Positions 1,577-32,076 of a stretch of DNA of 37,313 bases are shown piece by piece. The notes beneath the pieces are model-generated. The model was not told the DNA's origin. It made no database searches and saw nothing but the letters and a program-made list of their open reading frames with translations. The stretch's first letter is position 1, and the number at the start of each line of letters is the position of its first letter. The stretch lies in the NCBI RefSeq assembly GCF_008326305.1, contig NZ_BIXY01000072.1:1-37313 (forward strand), written 5' to 3'. Origin of the DNA: Dictyobacter arantiisoli. GTDB taxonomy: Bacteria; Chloroflexota; Ktedonobacteria; Ktedonobacterales; Ktedonobacteraceae. The position numbers were made by a program, and so were the translations under genes.

Positions 1577-3472
1577 ATGGATCTGGTAAAGCGGTTAGAA
1601 GAATACCGGGACCGTGAGCGTGAGCTCATGTGGGAAGGAATATTCGCGGAGTACTTCGAGATTGCCAGTAAAAAGCCAGCGGTAGCTCGACTTTCTCATG
1701 AACGCATCTATCAAATGATCATGGACGCGGGGGTAGAGACAGCCCATACTGGTGAAACACACTACAAGTTTTTTCAAGATGAGATTTTTGGTATTGAAAA
1801 GCCCTTGCAGCAAATTGTGGATTATTTCCACTCGGCCGCACAGCGTCTGGAAGTACGTAAGCGCATCCTCTTATTAATGGGACCGGTTGGCGGTGGTAAG
1901 TCAACGATTGTCCACCTGATTAAACGTGGTCTGGAAGCCTACAGTCGTGTTCCAGAGGGAGCAATCTACGCAATTAAAGATTGTCCAATGCATGAAGAGC
2001 CTCTTCATTTGATTCCATACGAGCTACGTGGCGACGTAGAAAAAGAATTTGGCCTCTACATAGAAGGCGACCTGTGCCCCCATTGTCGTTACATGGTTGA
2101 CACCCAGTATCGTGGGCGTATTGAAGAAGTGCCGGTGAAGCGCATCAGCTTCAGCGAAAAATATCGTGTTGGAGTGGGCACATTCACCCCATCGGATCCC
2201 AAGAGTCAGGATATCAGCGAGCTGGTTGGTGGTATTGACCTCTCCACGATTGGAGAGGTTGGTGTTGAAAGCGATCCACGCGCCTATCGTTTCGATGGTG
2301 AGCTCAATATCGCTAATCGTGGCGTGATGGAATTTGTAGAAATGCTCAAAACTGATGAGAAGTTTCTCTACGTTTTGCTAACCCTGAGCCAGGAGCAGAA
2401 TATCAAGACCGGGCGCTTCAGCATGATCTATGCTGACGAAGTGGTTGTGAGCCATACCAATGAGCATGAATATCAGTCATTTGTGGGAAATAAGAAGTCG
2501 GAAGCGTTGCAAGATCGTATCATTCTGGCCAAGGTTCCCTATAATCTGCGTGTCTCGGATGAGGTGAAAATCTACGAGAAACTGCTCAAGCAGAGCGCCT
2601 TGCAGAATGTCCATATTGCTCCCTACACCTTGCGTATCGCCAGCATCTTTGCGCTGCTAACGCGTCTGGAACCCTCCAAGAAAGCCGGTATGAGTTTGAT
2701 GAAAAAACTCAAACTCTATGATGGCGAAGATATGGAAGATTTTAAGCAGAAGGATGTACGTGAGTTGCAGGAAGAGGCTGTCCGTGAGGGTATGGATGGT
2801 ATCTCTCCACGCTATGTCATTAATCGTTTGTCGAACGCTCTCATCAAAAACAATGTGACGTACATTAGCCCCATCGATGCTCTACGTGCTTTGCGAGATG
2901 GCCTGGATCAGCATACTAGTATCACGCGCGAGGAGCGCGAGCGCTATCTCAATTTCATCAATGATGCACGTAAAGAATACGATGAAATCGCCAAGAAAGA
3001 AGTCCAGCGTGCGTTTGTCTACTCCTACGAGGAGTCGGCTCACACGATGCTGAATAATTACCTCGATAATGTAGAGGCTTACTGTAATAAGACCAAGTTG
3101 CGCGATCCAATTACCGATGAGGAGTTGGAGCCCGATGAGCATCTAATGCGCTCAATTGAGGAGCAGATTGGTGTGTCGGAGAATGCCAAGCGTTCGTTCC
3201 GTGAAGAGATTCTGATTCGTATCTCCTCACTGGCTCGCAAAGGCCTGAGTTTCGATTATACCAGCCATGAGCGCCTCAAAGAAGCGATTGAGAAGAAGTT
3301 GTTTGCCGACTTGCGCGATGTAGTGAAGATTACGACCTCGACGCGTACCCCGGATAAAGAGCAGTTGCGCAAGATCAATGAAGTGGTTGAGCGCCTGGTG
3401 GCTGAGCAGGGCTACACCTATGAGAGCGCCAATGAACTGCTCCGCTATACAGGGAGCCTCTTAAACCGGTAA
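1577..3472 (+). CDS. prkA: PrkA family serine protein kinase / AAA+ protein
   Basis: This 631-residue protein has the length of Bacillus PrkA. It has an N-terminal AAA+ PrkA domain with Walker A GPVGGGKST at 102-110, a conserved LCPHC cysteine pair, and the C-terminal PrkA domain. Family members (YeaG in Escherichia coli, PrkA in Bacillus) have been described as serine kinases, and Bacillus PrkA also as an ATP-dependent protease acting in sporulation, so the biochemical role is debated. AGAGAGGA six bases before ATG 1577 is a good ribosome site. It is the first gene of a three-gene run with a yhbH homologue and a spoVR homologue, the conserved stress/sporulation cluster. In a spore-forming relative a role in differentiation is a reasonable inference. 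Confidence 0.95.
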   Translation: MDLVKRLEEYRDRERELMWEGIFAEYFEIASKKPAVARLSHERIYQMIMDAGVETAHTGETHYKFFQDEIFGIEKPLQQIVDYFHSAAQRLEVRKRILLLMGPVGGGKSTIVHLIKRGLEAYSRVPEGAIYAIKDCPMHEEPLHLIPYELRGDVEKEFGLYIEGDLCPHCRYMVDTQYRGRIEEVPVKRISFSEKYRVGVGTFTPSDPKSQDISELVGGIDLSTIGEVGVESDPRAYRFDGELNIANRGVMEFVEMLKTDEKFLYVLLTLSQEQNIKTGRFSMIYADEVVVSHTNEHEYQSFVGNKKSEALQDRIILAKVPYNLRVSDEVKIYEKLLKQSALQNVHIAPYTLRIASIFALLTRLEPSKKAGMSLMKKLKLYDGEDMEDFKQKDVRELQEEAVREGMDGISPRYVINRLSNALIKNNVTYISPIDALRALRDGLDQHTSITREERERYLNFINDARKEYDEIAKKEVQRAFVYSYEESAHTMLNNYLDNVEAYCNKTKLRDPITDEELEPDEHLMRSIEEQIGVSENAKRSFREEILIRISSLARKGLSFDYTSHERLKEAIEKKLFADLRDVVKITTSTRTPDKEQLRKINEVVERLVAEQGYTYESANELLRYTGSLLNR

Positions 3473-3586
3473 AATCAGGATGATCCGTGTCGAAAGTGTG
3501 CGGTCCCGTTGGATATTCAAGGGTGAATTTCTGACGGCGCAGCCACTTTCTTCACTATTGCCTCATGCGAGGAAGGAGCATCATCT

Positions 3587-4729
3587 ATGTCTGTCTCCCA
3601 ACATGATTGGTCATTGCATCGCAAAGGTCAGGTTGATCAGGAGCGCCACAAGGAGAAGATCCGCGAGGCGGTCAAGAAGAATCTGGGGGAGATTGTAAGC
3701 GAGGAGAATATCATTCTTTCCGATGGGAAGAAGACGGTACGTATCCCTATTCGCTCCCTGGAAGAGTATCGTTTCCGCTATGATTTTGGGCGTCAGCAGC
3801 ATGCCGGTCAGGGGACCGGGAAGAGTAAAGTTGGCGATGTCGTAGCCCAGGAACCACGACAGGGCAAGGGCAAAAAAGGGGAGGCCGGTAAGGACGCTGG
3901 TTACGACTATTATGAGGCTGAAGTCTCGATGGAAGAACTGGCCGCCTTGATTTTTGAGGATCTGAGCCTGCCGAATCTTGAACAGAAGCGGCAGCAGGAG
4001 ATGCAGACCGAGGCTGTCCGCTTTACCGATGTGCGCAAAAAAGGAGCCATGGCGAATCTGGATAAGAAGCGCACCATCATGGAGAATATCAAGCGGAACG
4101 CCGCCAAAGGCGATGCATCATTTAAAGATATCCGCTCCGATGATCTGCGCTTCAAAGTCTGGGAACCAACGATTAAATATCAATCCAACGCAGTTGTGAT
4201 TGCCATGATGGACGTGTCTGGATCAATGGGCGAGTTTGAGAAGTATATTGCGCGCAGCTTTTACTTCTGGATGGTACGTTTCTTGCGTACCAAATATAAC
4301 AATGTAAAGATTGTCTTCATCAGTCATCACACCGAGGCTAAAGAGGTCACAGAAGAAGAGTTCTTCCACAAAGGCGAGAGCGGCGGCACCCAGGTTTCCT
4401 CGGCCTATGAGTTGGCGTTACAGATCATCAAAGAGCGTTTTGATCCCAACGATTGGAACATCTATCCTTTCCATTTCTCTGATGGGGATAATCTCCCCTG
4501 GGATAATGATCGTTGTGTGCAACTGGTCAATAAGCTGATGGAGCAGTGTAACATCTTTGGCTATGGCGAGATTCGTGAGGGACATTATCGCTCACCCAGT
4601 ACGCTGATGTCGGCGTATAACAAGATCAATGACAAGAAGTTCATCCCTGTTACCATTTCCGATAAAAAAGAGGTCTATCCCGCGCTGCGTAAGTTCTTTG
4701 CCCAGCGTGATCCTGTGCCAGTCAGGTAG
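3587..4729 (+). CDS. yhbH: YeaH/YhbH family protein (DUF444, von Willebrand A-like)
   Basis: The 380-residue product starts with SQHDWSLHRKGQ, the usual N-terminus of the YeaH/YhbH family. A basic, glycine-rich low-complexity linker follows (about 70-105). A von Willebrand A-like fold comes next, with the metal-ion site DVSGSMG at 209-215 and GGTQVSSAY at 266-274. VWA/MIDAS domains usually mediate protein-protein contacts, often with AAA+ partners, so pairing with PrkA is plausible. GGAAGGAG lies upstream of ATG 3587. The gap to prkA is 114 bases and to the next gene 17 bases, which supports one operon. In Bacillus yhbH is needed for efficient sporulation; in E. coli yeaG-yeaH are stationary-phase genes. 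The exact molecular function is unknown. Confidence 0.93.
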   Translation: MSVSQHDWSLHRKGQVDQERHKEKIREAVKKNLGEIVSEENIILSDGKKTVRIPIRSLEEYRFRYDFGRQQHAGQGTGKSKVGDVVAQEPRQGKGKKGEAGKDAGYDYYEAEVSMEELAALIFEDLSLPNLEQKRQQEMQTEAVRFTDVRKKGAMANLDKKRTIMENIKRNAAKGDASFKDIRSDDLRFKVWEPTIKYQSNAVVIAMMDVSGSMGEFEKYIARSFYFWMVRFLRTKYNNVKIVFISHHTEAKEVTEEEFFHKGESGGTQVSSAYELALQIIKERFDPNDWNIYPFHFSDGDNLPWDNDRCVQLVNKLMEQCNIFGYGEIREGHYRSPSTLMSAYNKINDKKFIPVTISDKKEVYPALRKFFAQRDPVPVR

Positions 4730-4746
4730 AGTCAGGAGTTTCTTAC

Positions 4747-6195
4747 ATGATTGATCATGTTGCTACCAGTGACATTGAAAACCTGCGCGATGGTATAGAT
4801 GCAGCCTGGGAAGAGGCGCGCCGTTTCGGCCTGGACCCATTCCCGACCCATTTTGAACTCGTTCCCGCTTCTATTATGTATGAGTTTGCCTCCTATAGTC
4901 TGCCTGGACGTTTTAGCCATTGGACGCATGGCAAAGCGTTCTATCGACAAAAGATGCAGTATGACCTGGGCCTGAGCAAAATCTATGAGATGGTGGTCAA
5001 CACTAATCCCAGTTATGCTTTCCTGATGGACATGAATAGTCTGTTGCAAAATACTTTTGTGGCAGCACATGTCTTTGGTCATACCGATTTCTTCAAGAAC
5101 AACGCGTACTTTCAGCATACGTCCCGGCGTATGATTGATAAGGCCAGCATTCATGCCGAACGTATTGCTAAATATGAGTTCGATCATGGTAAGGATGAGG
5201 TCGAACGCTTCCTGGATGCGGTCCTCTCGATTCAGGAGCATATCGACTACAATCTTTTGCTGCAAAATGAAAATACCCCAGAAAGTGAAAATGCTGTCAC
5301 CACCGCCAGCACGGCTTATGATGACTTATGGGATTTCGATGATAAGGCGAAAAAAGCTGAGGAGGAGCGCGAGAAGCGTCCTGGCAAGCCTGTGAAGTTT
5401 CCTGAGAAACCCGAAAAAGATCTCTTGCTCTTCCTGATTCGCCATGCGCCGAGCCTTGAGCCATGGCAGCGGGATGTGATTGAGATTGTACGCAATGAGA
5501 TGCTCTACTTCATTCCTCAGATGCAAACGAAGGTTATGAATGAGGGATGGGCCTCAATCTGGCACTCGCGTATCATGCGTGAACTGGGTAATAAAGAGGT
5601 CATCTCAGACTCTGATACAGTCGAGTTTGCACAACTCCATTCGGGCGTGCTCACCCCATCCCGTACCTCGTTGAATCCTTACTATATCGGATATAAGATT
5701 TTTGAGGATATTGAGCGGCGCTGGGATAATCCCACTCGTGAAGAGCAGGATCGCCTGGGCCGCAAACCAGGTATGGGACGGCAGAAGATCTTTGAAGTGC
5801 GGGAACTCGATAATGATGTTTCGTTCCTGCGTAACTATCTGACCGAGGATCTGGTCAAAGATCTGGATCTCTACCTCTATAAAAAAGAGGGCGATGACTG
5901 GGTGATTGCTGAGAAAAACTGGCAGAAGGTGCGCGATTCTATTGTGTCCAGCATGACAAACTTCGGCCATCCCTATCTGGTCGTGGATAATGGGGACTAT
6001 CATGGCAATCGCGAGCTTTACCTGATGCATCTCTTTGAGGGGCAGGAACTCGATCTGGGCTATGCTGAAAAGACCTTGCAACATGTCTATATCCTCTGGG
6101 GGCGTCCCGTCCATTTAGAGACCGTGTTTGAGGGCAAGCACATCCTCATGACCTATGATGGAGAGCGCAATAGCAAGAGCTCACTAGAAAAATAA
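4747..6195 (+). CDS. spoVR: SpoVR family protein
   Basis: The 482-residue product lies in the size range of SpoVR/YcgB (about 470-510). Family landmarks include FGLDPFPTHFELV near the start, SYSLPGRFSHWTHGK, FVAAHVFGHTDFFKNN with conserved histidines, EGWASIWHSRIM, and HSGVLTPSRTSLNPYYIGYK. Bacillus SpoVR is required for proper spore cortex formation; the E. coli homologue YcgB is of unclear function. CAGGAG precedes ATG 4747, which sits 17 bases after yhbH. The prkA-yhbH-spoVR grouping recurs widely and suggests that the three proteins act together. The charged region around residues 195-220 (KKAEEEREKRPGK) is probably a flexible linker. The ORF is intact. Confidence 0.95.
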   Translation: MIDHVATSDIENLRDGIDAAWEEARRFGLDPFPTHFELVPASIMYEFASYSLPGRFSHWTHGKAFYRQKMQYDLGLSKIYEMVVNTNPSYAFLMDMNSLLQNTFVAAHVFGHTDFFKNNAYFQHTSRRMIDKASIHAERIAKYEFDHGKDEVERFLDAVLSIQEHIDYNLLLQNENTPESENAVTTASTAYDDLWDFDDKAKKAEEEREKRPGKPVKFPEKPEKDLLLFLIRHAPSLEPWQRDVIEIVRNEMLYFIPQMQTKVMNEGWASIWHSRIMRELGNKEVISDSDTVEFAQLHSGVLTPSRTSLNPYYIGYKIFEDIERRWDNPTREEQDRLGRKPGMGRQKIFEVRELDNDVSFLRNYLTEDLVKDLDLYLYKKEGDDWVIAEKNWQKVRDSIVSSMTNFGHPYLVVDNGDYHGNRELYLMHLFEGQELDLGYAEKTLQHVYILWGRPVHLETVFEGKHILMTYDGERNSKSSLEK

Positions 6196-8872: not shown

Positions 8873-8945
8873 GCATATTATATAGGGGGAAGGACGCATT
8901 TTTGAGGATTTGTAAAAAATGCGTCCTTCCCCCTATATAATATGC
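8873..8945. terminator. Perfect 31 bp hairpin
   Basis: Arm 8873-8903 is the exact reverse complement of 8915-8945, with an 11-base loop (8904-8914). The stem reads GCATATTATATAGGGGGAAG and onward. It follows the sugar-phosphate transferase gene and could act as a terminator, but no T-tract follows on either strand, so another role (RNA processing, palindromic element) is possible. Confidence 0.55.
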
Positions 8946-9176: not shown

Positions 9177-11879
9177 ATGCGTTGTCCTCGTTGCGGATTC
9201 AACGTTGCATCCTTGAGTAGTCAATGTCCACAATGTGGATACATTTACAATGTTTCTAGTTCTATGAAATCAATGCAACCTATCGCATCGACGAGATTAT
9301 CAAATGCTCCCGAGGTGGTTGAATGGTCGTTAATGCGAGGGGATACCCTGCGTGCTGGTCGTTATCGCTTGCTTGAAGAAGTGACATTGCCAAGAAATCA
9401 GCAATGGCAAGGTAGTGCCTGGTTGGCATTGGATAGCCAGGGAACGCGAAGCCGCGTTTTGCTCCATAAATTGGATTTTCTCATACGTATTCCTGACAAA
9501 GCGCCAAGGATGATTGAAGCTATGAGGAATCGTATGACTCCTTTATCCAGGCATTCCAGCGCTACAGTACTGCTGGATATCTTTCAAGAAAAAGAGATTT
9601 ACTACGTTGTTCAGCCATATCCTGCTGGCATCAGTCTCGCGCTTTTGATGCAAGAGCAAGGCGGAGCTCTGCCGGAAAAGGATGTCGCGGAGTATGGGCG
9701 AGAGTTGTGCGGCTTCCTGACCGCCCTGGCGCGCCAGCAACAGCCAATTGTGCATGGAGCAATTAGTGTTGATACGATCGTTATTTCTCCTGATCATCAT
9801 GCTTCACTAGAGTTCCTATCCCTTTTCCCACCCTTAAAAAATTCTCAGAGCGAGAGCGCCATATCCAGTTATGCTGCACCTGAACAGACGCGAGGAGGGG
9901 ATATACAGCCCTCTTCCGATCTTTATGCGTTAGCTGCTACTATGCACCATGCCGTGACTGGATTTGACCCTCGTGAACGTATGGTCTTCTTCTATCCACC
10001 CGCTCGTCGTCTGAATCCTCTGGTAAGTGTGGGGATGGAGACTATTCTGGCTCGTCAGTTGCGCTTTTCTATTTCCCAACGCTACGCACGTCCAGAGGAT
10101 ATGCAAACGGATCTGGATGCATTGATCGTTTCCTATCCTTCAGAAGAAATGATTGCGGCATCAAAGTCGGCTTCTCTAATGCAGAGTACTGGCGCTTTGC
10201 AAGTTCTTCCGCAGAAAAGCAAGCGAAACACGATCCTGGCTATCAGTGCCGTCAGTATTGTACTGGTCATTCTGCTGATCTTTTTGATCCCTTTCCTATC
10301 TAACCGCATGGTTACCATGCAGAGCGCGGATGCCACTGCGACCAGTGTTGCTCAGGCCAGTTTTTACCATAATGCCTTAGATAAGCAACTGGTAACAGAG
10401 CTGCAGAGCTATCAGCAAAAGGGTATTGGCCTCAGTGATGGTCGTCTGGTCTTTGATACATATACAGGACGTGTGGATGTATCCTTGAAAAAACAGGCGG
10501 CTACCGCACTCCAGTCAGGAAATATGAGTGCGGCCGTCGATTTTCTCAATCAAGCTGTCAACTCTGATCCTATTGATGGTGAGGCGCAGATTTACAATGA
10601 AGATTTGCATATTCTTCAGCACAATTCTCCTTATGTTACATTAGCTCTGGGTTTACCGGTGGCTAACAGCTCGCTCTATCTCGGTAATGTACGTGAGCAA
10701 TTGGAAGCAGTCTATCTGGCGCAGCATGAAGCCAACACCAATAATCTATTGCCAGGCGGGCTCAAGTTGCGCATCATCATTGCGAATTCTGGCTCAAGCA
10801 ATAGCAATGTGGCGACGGTTGCGCAATTTATCGCGAATCGTGTCTCCAATGCTGGAAATCTGGATCATTTGATTGGGGTCATTGGTTGGTATAATAGTAC
10901 CCAGACAGTAGATGCACGCGATATTATCAGTAGTGTTCATTTGCCAATTATTGCTCCTACCGCCTCCAGCGTAAAATTGAGCGGTTCCAGCCCATATTTT
11001 TTTCGCATCAGTCCCGCCGATGATCGGCAGGGTGATGTATTAGGTTCGCTACTGATTAATAATCTGAAGGCAAAGCACATTCTTGTCTTCAGAGATCCAA
11101 CCGACTCCTATAGTGTCTCATTATCCAACGCCTTTGCCAAACGCGTGCAGGCGCTGGGTGGTTCTATGGTGCAACAAATCTTTAGCGAGAATCAGACGAC
11201 CGTGGCGCAGTATCAACAGATCATTACCGATAATGCGAATAGTTCCACTCCGGCGGATGCTGTTTTCATGGCTGGTTTTAATGTGGATGGGGTGCGTCTG
11301 GCGCATGCTGCAGGCGAAGCAGCGCGTGCTATGCCCGATAGTGCATCCTTGCACAATCTCAAGGTTGTAGGTGGTGATGATTTTTATTCTGTCTTGTTGT
11401 TGGGGCAGGGTGGTAGCGCGGACGCATCATTGGCATTGAATTATCCTCAAGATATGCGTCGGCTCATTTTTACGACCTTTGCAGATGCGGGAGAGTGGCA
11501 ACAATTCAATATTCCACAATCTCATTGGCCGCAACTCTTCCAGGATTGGAAGTCGATCTATCAAGGCTCTGCCACAGGAACGAATGCTGCGACCCCGACT
11601 TATAAGGGCTTGATGATCTATGATGCCGTTGGTGTGGCTATCCATGGCGCGTCCTTAGTGCATGATGGCACCATTACCGGCGATCGATTGCAGTCCTCCC
11701 TGCTCAAGCTAGGGACCGGGAGTGTTGCCGCCTACCAGGGCATTAGTGGACAGATTCGTTTTGATGCCAGCACGCATAATCCCGTTGATAAAGCGCTGGT
11801 AATCTTAACGGTGGGGACGGATGCCAATAATACCAATAAGATTGTCATCCAACAAGTGCTGGGCACATTCCGTGTGTAG
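9177..11879 (+). CDS. Zinc ribbon - pseudokinase - transmembrane - solute-binding receptor-like protein
   Basis: A 900-residue fusion. Residues 1-22 form a zinc ribbon (C3, C6, C17, C20). Residues 60-320 resemble a Ser/Thr kinase fold: the late-lobe signature AAPEQTRGG with PSSDLYALAATMHHAVTG is clear. However, the glycine loop is absent, the catalytic HRD loop is HGAISVDT (193-200) with no Asp base, and no DFG follows, so it should not phosphorylate by the classical mechanism. Residues 351-375 are one transmembrane helix. Residues 441-475 look like one TPR-type repeat. Residues 484-895 resemble branched-chain amino-acid ABC binding proteins (Peripla_BP_6: IGVIGWYNSTQT, PIIAPTASS, YFFRISPADDRQG). 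Predicted topology puts the pseudokinase inside and the binding domain outside. I chose ATG 9177 because GAGGAG lies seven bases upstream; the frame extends further upstream, but a start there would put 26 unconvincing residues before the zinc ribbon. No ABC permease gene is adjacent, so sensing rather than import is my inference. Confidence 0.85.
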   Translation: MRCPRCGFNVASLSSQCPQCGYIYNVSSSMKSMQPIASTRLSNAPEVVEWSLMRGDTLRAGRYRLLEEVTLPRNQQWQGSAWLALDSQGTRSRVLLHKLDFLIRIPDKAPRMIEAMRNRMTPLSRHSSATVLLDIFQEKEIYYVVQPYPAGISLALLMQEQGGALPEKDVAEYGRELCGFLTALARQQQPIVHGAISVDTIVISPDHHASLEFLSLFPPLKNSQSESAISSYAAPEQTRGGDIQPSSDLYALAATMHHAVTGFDPRERMVFFYPPARRLNPLVSVGMETILARQLRFSISQRYARPEDMQTDLDALIVSYPSEEMIAASKSASLMQSTGALQVLPQKSKRNTILAISAVSIVLVILLIFLIPFLSNRMVTMQSADATATSVAQASFYHNALDKQLVTELQSYQQKGIGLSDGRLVFDTYTGRVDVSLKKQAATALQSGNMSAAVDFLNQAVNSDPIDGEAQIYNEDLHILQHNSPYVTLALGLPVANSSLYLGNVREQLEAVYLAQHEANTNNLLPGGLKLRIIIANSGSSNSNVATVAQFIANRVSNAGNLDHLIGVIGWYNSTQTVDARDIISSVHLPIIAPTASSVKLSGSSPYFFRISPADDRQGDVLGSLLINNLKAKHILVFRDPTDSYSVSLSNAFAKRVQALGGSMVQQIFSENQTTVAQYQQIITDNANSSTPADAVFMAGFNVDGVRLAHAAGEAARAMPDSASLHNLKVVGGDDFYSVLLLGQGGSADASLALNYPQDMRRLIFTTFADAGEWQQFNIPQSHWPQLFQDWKSIYQGSATGTNAATPTYKGLMIYDAVGVAIHGASLVHDGTITGDRLQSSLLKLGTGSVAAYQGISGQIRFDASTHNPVDKALVILTVGTDANNTNKIVIQQVLGTFRV

Positions 11880-11917: not shown

Positions 11918-11976
11918 TTTTTAGTGTGTATTGCTGTAAATATGCATAGCATATTTACAGCAATACACACTAAAAA
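11918..11976. terminator. Perfect 28 bp hairpin between convergent genes
   Basis: Arm 11918-11945 is the exact reverse complement of 11949-11976, with a 3-base loop. The outer five pairs are T on the left and A on the right. It lies between the converging pseudokinase gene and uvrA and probably serves as a two-way transcription barrier, although the T-run precedes rather than follows the stem on the + strand. Confidence 0.6.
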
Positions 11977-15775: not shown

Positions 15776-16495
15776 GTGAATGGTTTGAAAGAAGAAAAAC
15801 GGAACGACAAGCAATATCGCCTCATCCGAGAGATTATCGAGACGATTATTTTGACTATCTTGATGTTTGTAGTGATCAATCTGGCGATTCAGAACTACGA
15901 CGTGGATGGTCCCAGTATGGAACCAAGTTTACATAATCAAGAGCGGATTGTGGTTGATAAAGTATCATACCATTTTCGCAGCCCCTCACGTGGTGATGTG
16001 ATTGTATTTGTCGCCCCACCAGATCCTGCGCTCGATTATGTCAAACGGATCATTGCGCTACCTGGCGATACCTTAACGATCAAAGGCACAACAGTTATCG
16101 TTGACAATGCGGTACTCAAAGAAACGTATGTGGCAGATGGGTATCAGGGGAATCCCTACCAACCGATCATCAATCAACGGGTACCGGCCAACGACTATTT
16201 TGTGATGGGTGATGATCGCAAGAACAGTTCAGATTCACGCGATTGGGGATTTGTCCCACGGCAAAATATCATTGGCCGTGCCACGCTAGTCTATTGGCCG
16301 TTAGGACTGTCCAATAGCGGGTTCTTGCCTGATGTTTCTTCGGTATTCGCAGATGTACACACAAAAGCGACAAAAGCGAACATCTCAGCGGCCCCTGTGC
16401 CATTGAAAGGTAGTACTTTTGACACAGATGGCATGGTATTGTTCGCTATGCCCGGGTTTTTCCTGGTATGCTCAAGGTGTCGTAAGCAGAGTTGA
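15776..16495 (+). CDS. lepB: Type I signal peptidase (first of a tandem pair)
   Basis: Signal peptidase I removes signal peptides from exported proteins at the outer face of the membrane. One N-terminal transmembrane helix (about 22-40) is followed by the catalytic Ser in DGPSMEPSLH (S47) and the general-base Lys in YVKRIIALPGD (K90). Box E is MGDDRKNSSDSRDWG, close to the usual GDNRxxSxDSRxWG. The catalytic domain ends near VYWPLG; a tail of about 45 residues with a hydrophobic stretch (MVLFAMPGFFLVC) follows. A stop lies directly before GTG 15776. TTG 15785, with AGGTG at 15774-15778, is an alternative start that would shorten the protein by three residues. It is paralogous to the next gene, 72 bases downstream, which suggests a local duplication. 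Confidence 0.9.
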   Translation: MNGLKEEKRNDKQYRLIREIIETIILTILMFVVINLAIQNYDVDGPSMEPSLHNQERIVVDKVSYHFRSPSRGDVIVFVAPPDPALDYVKRIIALPGDTLTIKGTTVIVDNAVLKETYVADGYQGNPYQPIINQRVPANDYFVMGDDRKNSSDSRDWGFVPRQNIIGRATLVYWPLGLSNSGFLPDVSSVFADVHTKATKANISAAPVPLKGSTFDTDGMVLFAMPGFFLVCSRCRKQS

Positions 16496-16567: not shown

Positions 16568-17413
16568 TTGAACACGGTGGTTCGCCTTGACCGTGAGTTC
16601 AAAGGAAAATCGTTGGATTTAGAATTTGATTTTGAAAAGCGATATCGTCTTGTTCGTGAAATTATAGAGACACTGGTTCTGACGGTTTTGATGTTTCTCG
16701 TGATCCGTCTTGCAGTCCAAAATTTTAACATTGATGGCATGAGCATGGAGCCCAGTTTACATAATCAGGAACTGGTGATTGTAGACAAATGGTCCTATAT
16801 TTTTCATACGCCAGCGCGAGGGGATGTCATCGTCTTTGTTGCGCCACCCAATCCTGCACAGGACTATATCAAGCGTGTGATTGGTTTGCCGGGAGATGTG
16901 ATTACGATCCAGAATACGCAGGTGATGGTGAATGGTAAAATGCTCTCTGAGGCGTATGTAGATCCCATGCGTCAGGGAAATCCTTATCAGCCAATCACCA
17001 ATATGCGTATTCCCCAGGGGGCCTACTTTGTGCTTGGTGATAATCGCGGTGGCAGCTCGGATTCGCGTGACTGGGGGTGCGTGCCCAATCAGAACATTAT
17101 TGGACGGGCAGCTGTCGTCTACTGGCCATTAGGGAAGGATAACAATGGTTTTCTGCCAGGCGTTTCCTCTACCTATACTGGGATCGCAAAAACTCCCACC
17201 ATCCCCAGTACCAGTGTCTGTATGATCCGCCATACCCAACCTGCTACCGCCGGGAGTGGGGCTGGAACGGCGTCTGCAGTGCCTACTGATAATCATTCCA
17301 GTGCGCTCAGCACAGCATCTATGCTGCTCCTGCCCTGTGCCGCCGTGGGATGTAGCCGTCGGAAACGTCGCTCAAAACCAGCATCTAACATGATAAAGAA
17401 ACAGACAGAATAA
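16568..17413 (+). CDS. lepB: Type I signal peptidase (second of a tandem pair)
   Basis: The 281-residue paralogue of the preceding gene has the same arrangement: a short cytoplasmic N-terminus, a transmembrane helix (about 34-51), catalytic Ser in DGMSMEPSLH (S59), Lys in YIKRVIGLPGD (K102) and the GDNRGGSSDSRDWG motif. The core of the two proteins is clearly related, from the RLVREIIET / RLIREIIET helix onward. Their C-terminal tails differ: here a Ser/Thr/Ala-rich stretch, a short hydrophobic piece and a basic end (SRRKRRSKPAS). TTG 16568 is the first start in frame; GTG 16577 is also possible, and neither has a strong ribosome site. Two tandem signal peptidases suggest different substrate sets or dosage, which the sequence alone cannot show. 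Confidence 0.9.
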   Translation: MNTVVRLDREFKGKSLDLEFDFEKRYRLVREIIETLVLTVLMFLVIRLAVQNFNIDGMSMEPSLHNQELVIVDKWSYIFHTPARGDVIVFVAPPNPAQDYIKRVIGLPGDVITIQNTQVMVNGKMLSEAYVDPMRQGNPYQPITNMRIPQGAYFVLGDNRGGSSDSRDWGCVPNQNIIGRAAVVYWPLGKDNNGFLPGVSSTYTGIAKTPTIPSTSVCMIRHTQPATAGSGAGTASAVPTDNHSSALSTASMLLLPCAAVGCSRRKRRSKPASNMIKKQTE

Positions 17414-31272: not shown

Positions 31273-32076
31273 TCAAATAAACTGTTCTAGTGCTGTTTGT
31301 AACTCTTGTGATGGAACGAGGATCGGGAAGATACACAGGCCGGTCTCCTGACGCAAACGCGTCAAAATCTGGTCATCCTGTGGATCAGAGATTGCCACTG
31401 TTAAGGTATTGCGTTCTTTGCCCAGGGGATAGCAATGGAGTTCTTGCGCGAGTGCCGGGCGGACAATATGCAGTAATCTGGTGGGCAAGGGGCGAGGCAG
31501 GTTAGCGAGATAGGGAATACCTAGTTGACGAGCGCGCTGCGAGAGATCCTCTTTTTTATGCTCAGACTGAGTTGGTGCATGACTCGGTTTGGGATTGCGT
31601 ACTTCAAAGAGCAGACGCACTTCCTGAGCTTTAGCGATGCAGGCAGTGAGATCCTGATGAGGGGTGGAACTGTCACTATAGCCAATCGTCATCAGTGTGG
31701 GACGGACGATATGGTCTTCTTCGGCGTGATGGACCTGCCAGAGCAACGCATCCCATAAGCGTTCCTGCACCAGAACAGCACCCTGACGATTGGCACCTGG
31801 CAAGAGCACAGAGAGCGTTGTACCTGTGAGCAGGATGGTATCGGTCTTTCTAATCAGACTGCTAAGCTGATCCCGATAGTATCTGAGGCTGTCCTGGATA
31901 GCTGTTTGAATATGATATGCGGAGTCGAAGTGCAGTTGGATGACGAGCAAAGCAAGCTGATCTATTGCCGCTGGAACAAACGCGCGTAAGCGAGTCGCGA
32001 TATCCTGTCTCATGGAAGCATCAGTATTTGCATGCATAGATGCTATGGCAGGAAGTACTGTATCCTTCTTGCACAT
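31273..32076 (-). CDS. Degenerate GGDEF-like domain fused to an MshEN/GspE-N-like domain
   Basis: A 267-residue soluble protein. Residues about 37-158 follow the GGDEF diguanylate cyclase fold pattern (LALLVIQLHFDSA, SSLIRKTDTILLTG, SVLLPGANRQGA, VQERLWDALL), but the GGDEF loop itself is replaced by TGTTL, so cyclase activity is unlikely. After a charged linker (about 160-182), residues about 183-267 resemble the T2SSE_N/MshEN domain (RLLHIVRPALAQELHCYPLG, LTVAISDPQDDQILTRL), a fold that binds c-di-GMP in some GspE/MshE proteins. There is no ATPase domain. AAGGAG precedes ATG 32076 by ten bases. Both assignments come from pattern recognition rather than strict motifs. A receptor or adaptor role in nucleotide signalling is an inference. 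Confidence 0.6.
   Translation of the reverse strand: MCKKDTVLPAIASMHANTDASMRQDIATRLRAFVPAAIDQLALLVIQLHFDSAYHIQTAIQDSLRYYRDQLSSLIRKTDTILLTGTTLSVLLPGANRQGAVLVQERLWDALLWQVHHAEEDHIVRPTLMTIGYSDSSTPHQDLTACIAKAQEVRLLFEVRNPKPSHAPTQSEHKKEDLSQRARQLGIPYLANLPRPLPTRLLHIVRPALAQELHCYPLGKERNTLTVAISDPQDDQILTRLRQETGLCIFPILVPSQELQTALEQFI

Follow-up and report, generated by a model that had tools for sequence, protein, structure and literature searches.

Control of a bacterial Ser/Thr kinase by a periplasmic binding protein is known from mycobacteria and corynebacteria, in which GlnH controls the kinase PknG through GlnX (PMC6069109, PMC9769921, PMC8546545), a precedent for signalling from a binding protein to a kinase. 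A precedent for a bacterial pseudokinase as docking platform is provided by M. tuberculosis MviN: its membrane-linked pseudokinase is unable to bind ATP, serves as a substrate of PknB and recruits FhaA (PMC12599244). For most bacterial Ser/Thr kinases the stimulus is not known, and pseudokinases of bacteria have hardly been studied; the receptor family described here unites these two questions in one polypeptide. The protein under study is encoded in a window of 37,313 nucleotides, the whole stretch of DNA analysed from the soil bacterium Dictyobacter arantiisoli, and consists of a zinc ribbon followed by a kinase fold, one membrane helix, a helical linker and a Peripla_BP_6/ANF-receptor ectodomain. 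Literature searches for this architecture found nothing. Proteins automatically annotated as 'bifunctional serine/threonine-protein kinase/ABC transporter substrate-binding protein' exist and offer no more than a lead.

The likeness to PknG-GlnX-GlnH, in which a periplasmic amino-acid-binding protein exerts trans-membrane control of a Ser/Thr kinase, is one of architecture and co-occurrence. That system comprises three proteins with an active soluble kinase, whereas the window receptor is one polypeptide devoid of catalytic residues, with a binding domain of the Peripla_BP_6/ANF type in place of GlnH. With the PASTA receptor kinases PknB, StkP and PrkC, which provide the closest solved folds, it shares a cytoplasmic Hanks-type fold, one membrane helix and an extracytoplasmic sensor; in contrast to these kinases, which retain catalytic motifs and PASTA ectodomains, all motifs are lost and a binding-protein ectodomain is present with no PASTA domain. 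MviN (ActPs3) and ActPs2 have similarly lost all three catalytic motifs, the kinase fold being followed in many members by a membrane segment, and the β3 Lys is replaced by Arg in ActPs2 as in several orthologs of the window protein (PMC12599244). However, the 250-aa activation-loop insert typical of ActPs2 is absent from the window protein, and ActPs2 and ActPs3 are actinobacterial with other attached domains, neither a binding-protein ectodomain nor a Chloroflexota member being described in a text search of PMC12599244. In the kinase tree, drawn without ActPs sequences, the window clade falls together with kinases from the order to which it belongs. The ectodomain has the same fold as LivJ/LivK and the ligand domains of mGluR/CaSR, but the former are importer subunits and the latter GPCR ectodomains, neither being joined to a kinase fold. 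The type I periplasmic-binding fold is also shared with the Peripla_BP_6/HAAT solute-binding proteins, but no adjoining permease or ATPase genes were recognised in the window.

Domain layout and loss of catalytic motifs

The receptor gene (P0001; 9177..11879, + strand, as are all domain coordinates below) encodes 900 aa in a single unbroken frame from ATG 9177 to a stop at 11879. A GAGGAG sequence lies ∼8 nt ahead of the ATG, and this start is backed both by the GAGGAG and by orthologs sharing the N-terminal MRCPxC. Perfect, terminator-like inverted repeats are observed on both sides, one of 31 nt (8873..8945) separating the receptor gene from an upstream MraY/WecA-like glycosyltransferase gene and one of 28 nt (11918..11976) situated 3' of the gene before a convergent uvrA, both neighbours being named from sequence. 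Thus, the receptor gene probably forms its own transcription unit. Both repeats are unusually long for terminators. No conserved neighbourhood was found around the orthologs, no neighbour being common with the window, and no operon linking the receptor gene to a kinase was seen in the ortholog neighbourhoods. The reading made previously from the sequence only had named a frameshift joining two separate genes as a possible source of error and a search for the full architecture in other genomes as a check. A frameshift or gene-fusion artefact was ruled out by the single intact frame and by recovery of the same fusion, with 39-51% identity, from many further genomes, indicating that the fusion is real and conserved.

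The N-terminal zinc ribbon (residues 1-22, 9177..9242) has the pattern CxxC-x10-CxxC, with Cys3/6/17/20 invariant in 11 orthologs, and also occurs in the active sister kinases; Pfam zinc-ribbon matches are below cutoff, and it is this invariance that bears out the original assignment. The pseudokinase domain (residues 55-322, 9339..10142) is followed by a single transmembrane helix at about residues 353-376 (10233..10304), as previously proposed, with a hydropathy maximum of 3.3 at residue 353 and a basic inner flank (KSKR) preceding it. Between this helix and the ectodomain lies a putatively extracytoplasmic linker, about residues 378-482 (10308..10622), helical in the model and kept in orthologs, in which the GIGLSDGRLVFD motif is found (conserved pattern GIGxSDGRxVFD). 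The sequence-only reading had described this region as a TPR-like piece, an assignment which was dropped as Pfam gives no TPR match at 378-482. The ectodomain, of the type I periplasmic-binding/ANF_receptor class, occupies residues 486-898 (10632..11870).

A kinase-like fold had been predicted for residues 60-320, with a structural model as its test, and a bilobal kinase fold was detected by profile, AlphaFold and Foldseek analysis. By itself the window protein gives a sub-threshold match to Pfam Pkinase (E 5e-5), while a profile of the orthologs matches S. aureus PrkC/PknB (4eqm) with E 1.7e-16 over residues 55-329. An AlphaFold model of the kinase-only residues 50-326 has a pLDDT of 87 and pTM of 0.87, its top Foldseek matches being M. 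tuberculosis PknB, S. aureus PknB/PrkC and PknA, with TM of about 0.7-0.77.

Motif loss was read against two active sister receptors of the window's own genome. Where the glycine loop is expected, alignments reveal an LP-x-NQxxQG insert (residues 71-79, 9387..9413), LPRNQQWQG in the window protein, modelled as a short helix (73-78) between β1 and β2. The β3 lysine position is occupied by His97 (9465..9467), by Arg or Tyr in orthologs and mostly by Gln in the sister families f3 and f4. At the αC glutamate position stands Arg119 (9531..9533), invariant in 11 orthologs, as is the catalytic-loop remnant HGAIS (residues 193-197, 9753..9767), in which the HRD Asp is replaced by Ala195; the Mg-binding Asn position is Thr200. 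In the alignments, the DFG position reads F213-L-S215 (9813..9821). The APE motif (YAAPEQ, 232-237) and the αF SDLY motif are retained, and an RRLNP motif is conserved in orthologs together with Arg119 and HGAIS. Of the glycine loop, β3 Lys, HRD Asp and DFG Asp, 0/4 are present in the window protein and its orthologs. The alignments thereby confirm a predicted pseudokinase lacking any catalytic element, extending across the entire ortholog clade the absence of glycine loop, HRD Asp and DFG originally noticed in the single protein. The window protein also retains R62, the PknB-like Arg of 'GRYR', together with an acidic residue at position 134; their PknB counterparts serve back-to-back dimers, and this retention would fit a dimerising platform.

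Distribution of the ectodomain

ANF_receptor passes Pfam thresholds in the window protein (E 4e-12; 4.3e-12 for residues 486-898) and Peripla_BP_6 does so in one ortholog (L043), with PDB sequence matches to 3td9 and 4n0q. The ectodomain model resembles LivJ/LivK with a TM-target of 0.80-0.84 in Foldseek, the closest folds being LivJ, LivK and the GABA-binding Atu2422, followed by mGluR ectodomains. The Peripla_BP_6-like domain recognised initially is therefore borne out by both Pfam and the LivJ/LivK-like model. In a LivJ-type alignment, S574, S597 and D734 of the window protein occupy putative head-group positions, corresponding to LivJ S79, T102 and E226, which bind the amino-acid head group. 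The LivJ-aligned Ser/Thr and acidic positions are changed in the Thermogemmatispora orthologs, so that amino-acid binding is plausible only in the window protein and the orthologs nearest to it, and different clades may have different ligands.

The same ectodomain is observed on other outputs. In the window's genome (L098:3353-6095, G000:C73), an ECF sigma gene overlaps a gene encoding a zf-HC2/membrane/Peripla_BP_6 protein, likely a sigma/anti-sigma pair with a binding-protein ectodomain. An HTH_3 and NB-ARC (STAND) protein in another genome of the family (L024:1498-4641, G036) bears a window-type ectodomain, which nests within the window's own clade in the ectodomain tree, instead of the ribbon and pseudokinase, and a TPR protein elsewhere in the window's family also carries it. 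On the Nostoc plasmid pNLP1 (L093), the C-terminal part of a caspase-family-annotated protein of ∼3,050 aa matches the ectodomain. Since the ectodomain sits on sigma-regulator, STAND, TPR and kinase outputs, its distribution argues for sensing rather than transport, the domain appearing to be a general sensor cassette and not a transporter part.

Ancestry, selection and coexistence with active receptors

Relatives are found in 47/47 genomes of the class. Window-type pseudokinase receptors were verified in two sister families, f3 and f4 (7 genomes), and in the window's own family, f1 (12 genomes), where 11 genomes besides the window's share the inactive version; named carriers are Ktedonobacter, Ktedonosporobacter, Thermogemmatispora and strain brp13. 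In the kinase-domain tree, which is unrooted and has long branches as a caveat, all pseudokinases fall to one side of a 100/98 branch, and an identical split between pseudokinases and active receptors is observed in the ectodomain tree (100/99). When further kinases and Eremiobacterota kinases were added, pseudokinases and active receptors of the same architecture shared one side of a 98/96 branch. Moreover, an intact ribbon-kinase-binding-domain protein (L096) is encoded in a genome from outside the class. The 98/96 branch and this intact fused kinase suggest that fusion came first and loss later, the simplest reading of the trees being one early fusion, with catalysis lost in one lineage before three families parted.

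The dN/dS of the pseudokinase domain is 0.05-0.10 among Thermogemmatispora orthologs, equal to the ectodomain level, and 0.31 in one close Ktedonobacter pair with few changes. The invariant HGAIS, Arg119 and Cys4 ribbon, together with the dN/dS of 0.05-0.10, indicate that the dead kinase domain is maintained under strong purifying selection. The window protein is not a singleton. Its place in a receptor family that also has active sisters, as a long-established inactive branch kept by selection, is new. In Thermogemmatispora, a tail-anchored ribbon-pseudokinase with no ectodomain is also encoded (L052). A search for kinase and binding-domain fusions on plasmids of other phyla gave no record covering 80% of either query, the matches being separate kinases, binding proteins, a Streptomyces-family NTPase/TM-binding-protein gene pair and the Nostoc caspase-annotated protein. 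Chromosomes outside Chloroflexota were scanned with conserved pseudokinase-clade patterns only, so that fusions of this kind may exist there.

Inactive and active receptors occur together. An intact sister receptor is present in at least 11/12 of the f1 genomes carrying the full-length pseudokinase, the array in the 12th (G040) meeting a contig end. Active sisters L002 and L003, both from the window's genome, and L096 have a domain order identical to that of the window protein and share its ancestry, but in these receptors GxGGMG, the β3 Lys, HRDIKPANI and DFG are intact. Thermogemmatispora (L103-L107) carries three tandem ribbon-kinase-TM-binding-domain genes in which the loss of catalytic motifs is graded: one copy is intact; a damaged copy has HCD or HRD and GFG, GFS or DFS, with the β3 Lys changed to Thr in one genome; and a DFG-less copy keeps the Lys, with HGD ... 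NLL. The full triplet is observed in 4/5 genomes, L105 showing two genes before the contig end. As these arrays hold intact, damaged and DFG-less copies, catalysis appears to have been lost more than once in the receptor family, and the genomes concerned nearly always encode an intact copy too.

Other kinase-pseudokinase combinations were also encountered. One protein of the window's genome (L009:1519-3492, G000:C73) has a kinase domain that looks complete (HQD, DFG), together with a zinc ribbon and another kinase-like domain in which both HRD and DFG are missing (RHYAISPADI, LTGFQ); kinase and pseudokinase are paired in cis, in a JAK-like layout. In Eremiobacterota, a membrane kinase gene in which HRD is replaced by FREL and the β3 Lys by Arg (L057:6598-9912) neighbours an intact membrane kinase (L058:7944-11238), forming another pseudokinase/kinase gene pair.

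Receptor model and alternative readings

The one-protein receptor originally proposed, with ligand outside and a pseudokinase platform inside, is supported by the fold, the motif loss and the conserved fusion, from which we infer receptor function. We favour, with somewhat better than even confidence, a ligand-gated pseudokinase receptor that serves as allosteric partner or scaffold, probably for an active kinase from its own receptor family. The bilobed ectodomain would close on a small molecule, which may be an amino acid or amide, with closure relayed via the helical linker and membrane helix to the pseudokinase on the presumed cytoplasmic side. The pseudokinase, predicted to be incapable of phosphorylation, would serve as a dimerisation and docking platform, its likeliest client being one of the active Ser/Thr kinases of that family, built likewise from zinc ribbon, kinase, membrane helix and binding domain, which it might turn on, keep off or present with a substrate. 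An ectodomain of the binding-protein type can be screened for ligands. In addition, live and dead receptors with the same architecture occur as natural pairs, and some arrays seem to be losing catalysis, so that what dead kinases do in bacterial signalling can be tested.

In animals, HER3 works with HER2. A tentative, and on balance doubtful, generalisation is that in Ktedonobacterales dead receptors form mixed, HER3/HER2-like dimers with active receptors of like architecture and so gate them, the window protein being an ancient, fixed dead partner and the Thermogemmatispora arrays the same division of labour arising again.

A partner receptor kinase would not be needed if the protein were a stand-alone scaffold of the MviN type, in which ligand alters the recruitment of FHA or other effectors by the pseudokinase, perhaps after its phosphorylation by an unrelated kinase. 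We regard this as the main competitor, although an unlikely one. It has the precedent of M. tuberculosis MviN (PMC12599244), and families f3 and f4 have the pseudokinase receptor while no intact-looking kinase with this ectodomain was seen among their best matches, which suggests that the receptor may not depend on an active partner of like architecture. However, in the window's own family the pseudokinase nearly always coexists with intact sister receptors, intact and degraded copies stand side by side in related arrays, and no FHA gene was recognised near the receptor gene.

Considerably less probable than either the partnered receptor or the stand-alone scaffold is a re-purposed enzyme with a different mode of nucleotide binding, catalysing some other transfer as do SelO (AMPylation) and SidJ (glutamylation). 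New activities have arisen in kinase folds that lack canonical motifs (PMC12599244), and the conserved Arg119, HGAIS and RRLNP could make a new site. The glycine loop, β3 Lys, catalytic Asp, Mg-binding Asn and DFG are, however, all missing together, whereas, according to a table in PMC12599244, SelO and SidJ retain several of the residues that bind nucleotide and metal.

We give slightly less weight still to a membrane-anchored solute-binding protein feeding an ABC importer with the kinase-like part as a mere anchor, a reading suggested by the ectodomain being nearest to the importer components LivJ/LivK in both sequence and fold. The sequence-only reading had judged transport unlikely without a neighbouring permease, and no permease or ATPase gene was recognised among the ORFs of the window, nor any permease gene around the orthologs, whose neighbourhoods are not conserved. 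A transporter component was rejected on these grounds; furthermore, the same cassette occurs on sigma-regulator, STAND and kinase proteins and the pseudokinase is under purifying selection. Decay towards gene loss, at which the longer branches of the pseudokinases relative to their active sisters and the lack of a full-length copy from some genomes of the family might hint, is extremely improbable, pseudogene decay being ruled out by wide conservation and dN/dS (0.05-0.10 in Thermogemmatispora), with frames open in every full-length copy and the inactive lineage common to three families.

Several other genes of the window were observed in passing. PrkA kinase, YhbH and SpoVR-like genes, named from sequence, are consecutive at 1577-6195 (+), a sporulation-associated set. 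Two tandem signal peptidase I-like genes are situated at 15776-16495 and 16568-17413 (+), each with a C-terminal tail beyond the catalytic part. The product of 31273-32076 (-) carries an MshEN domain at its C-terminus (Pfam E 1e-12), while its unrecognised N-terminal region may be a degenerate GGDEF.
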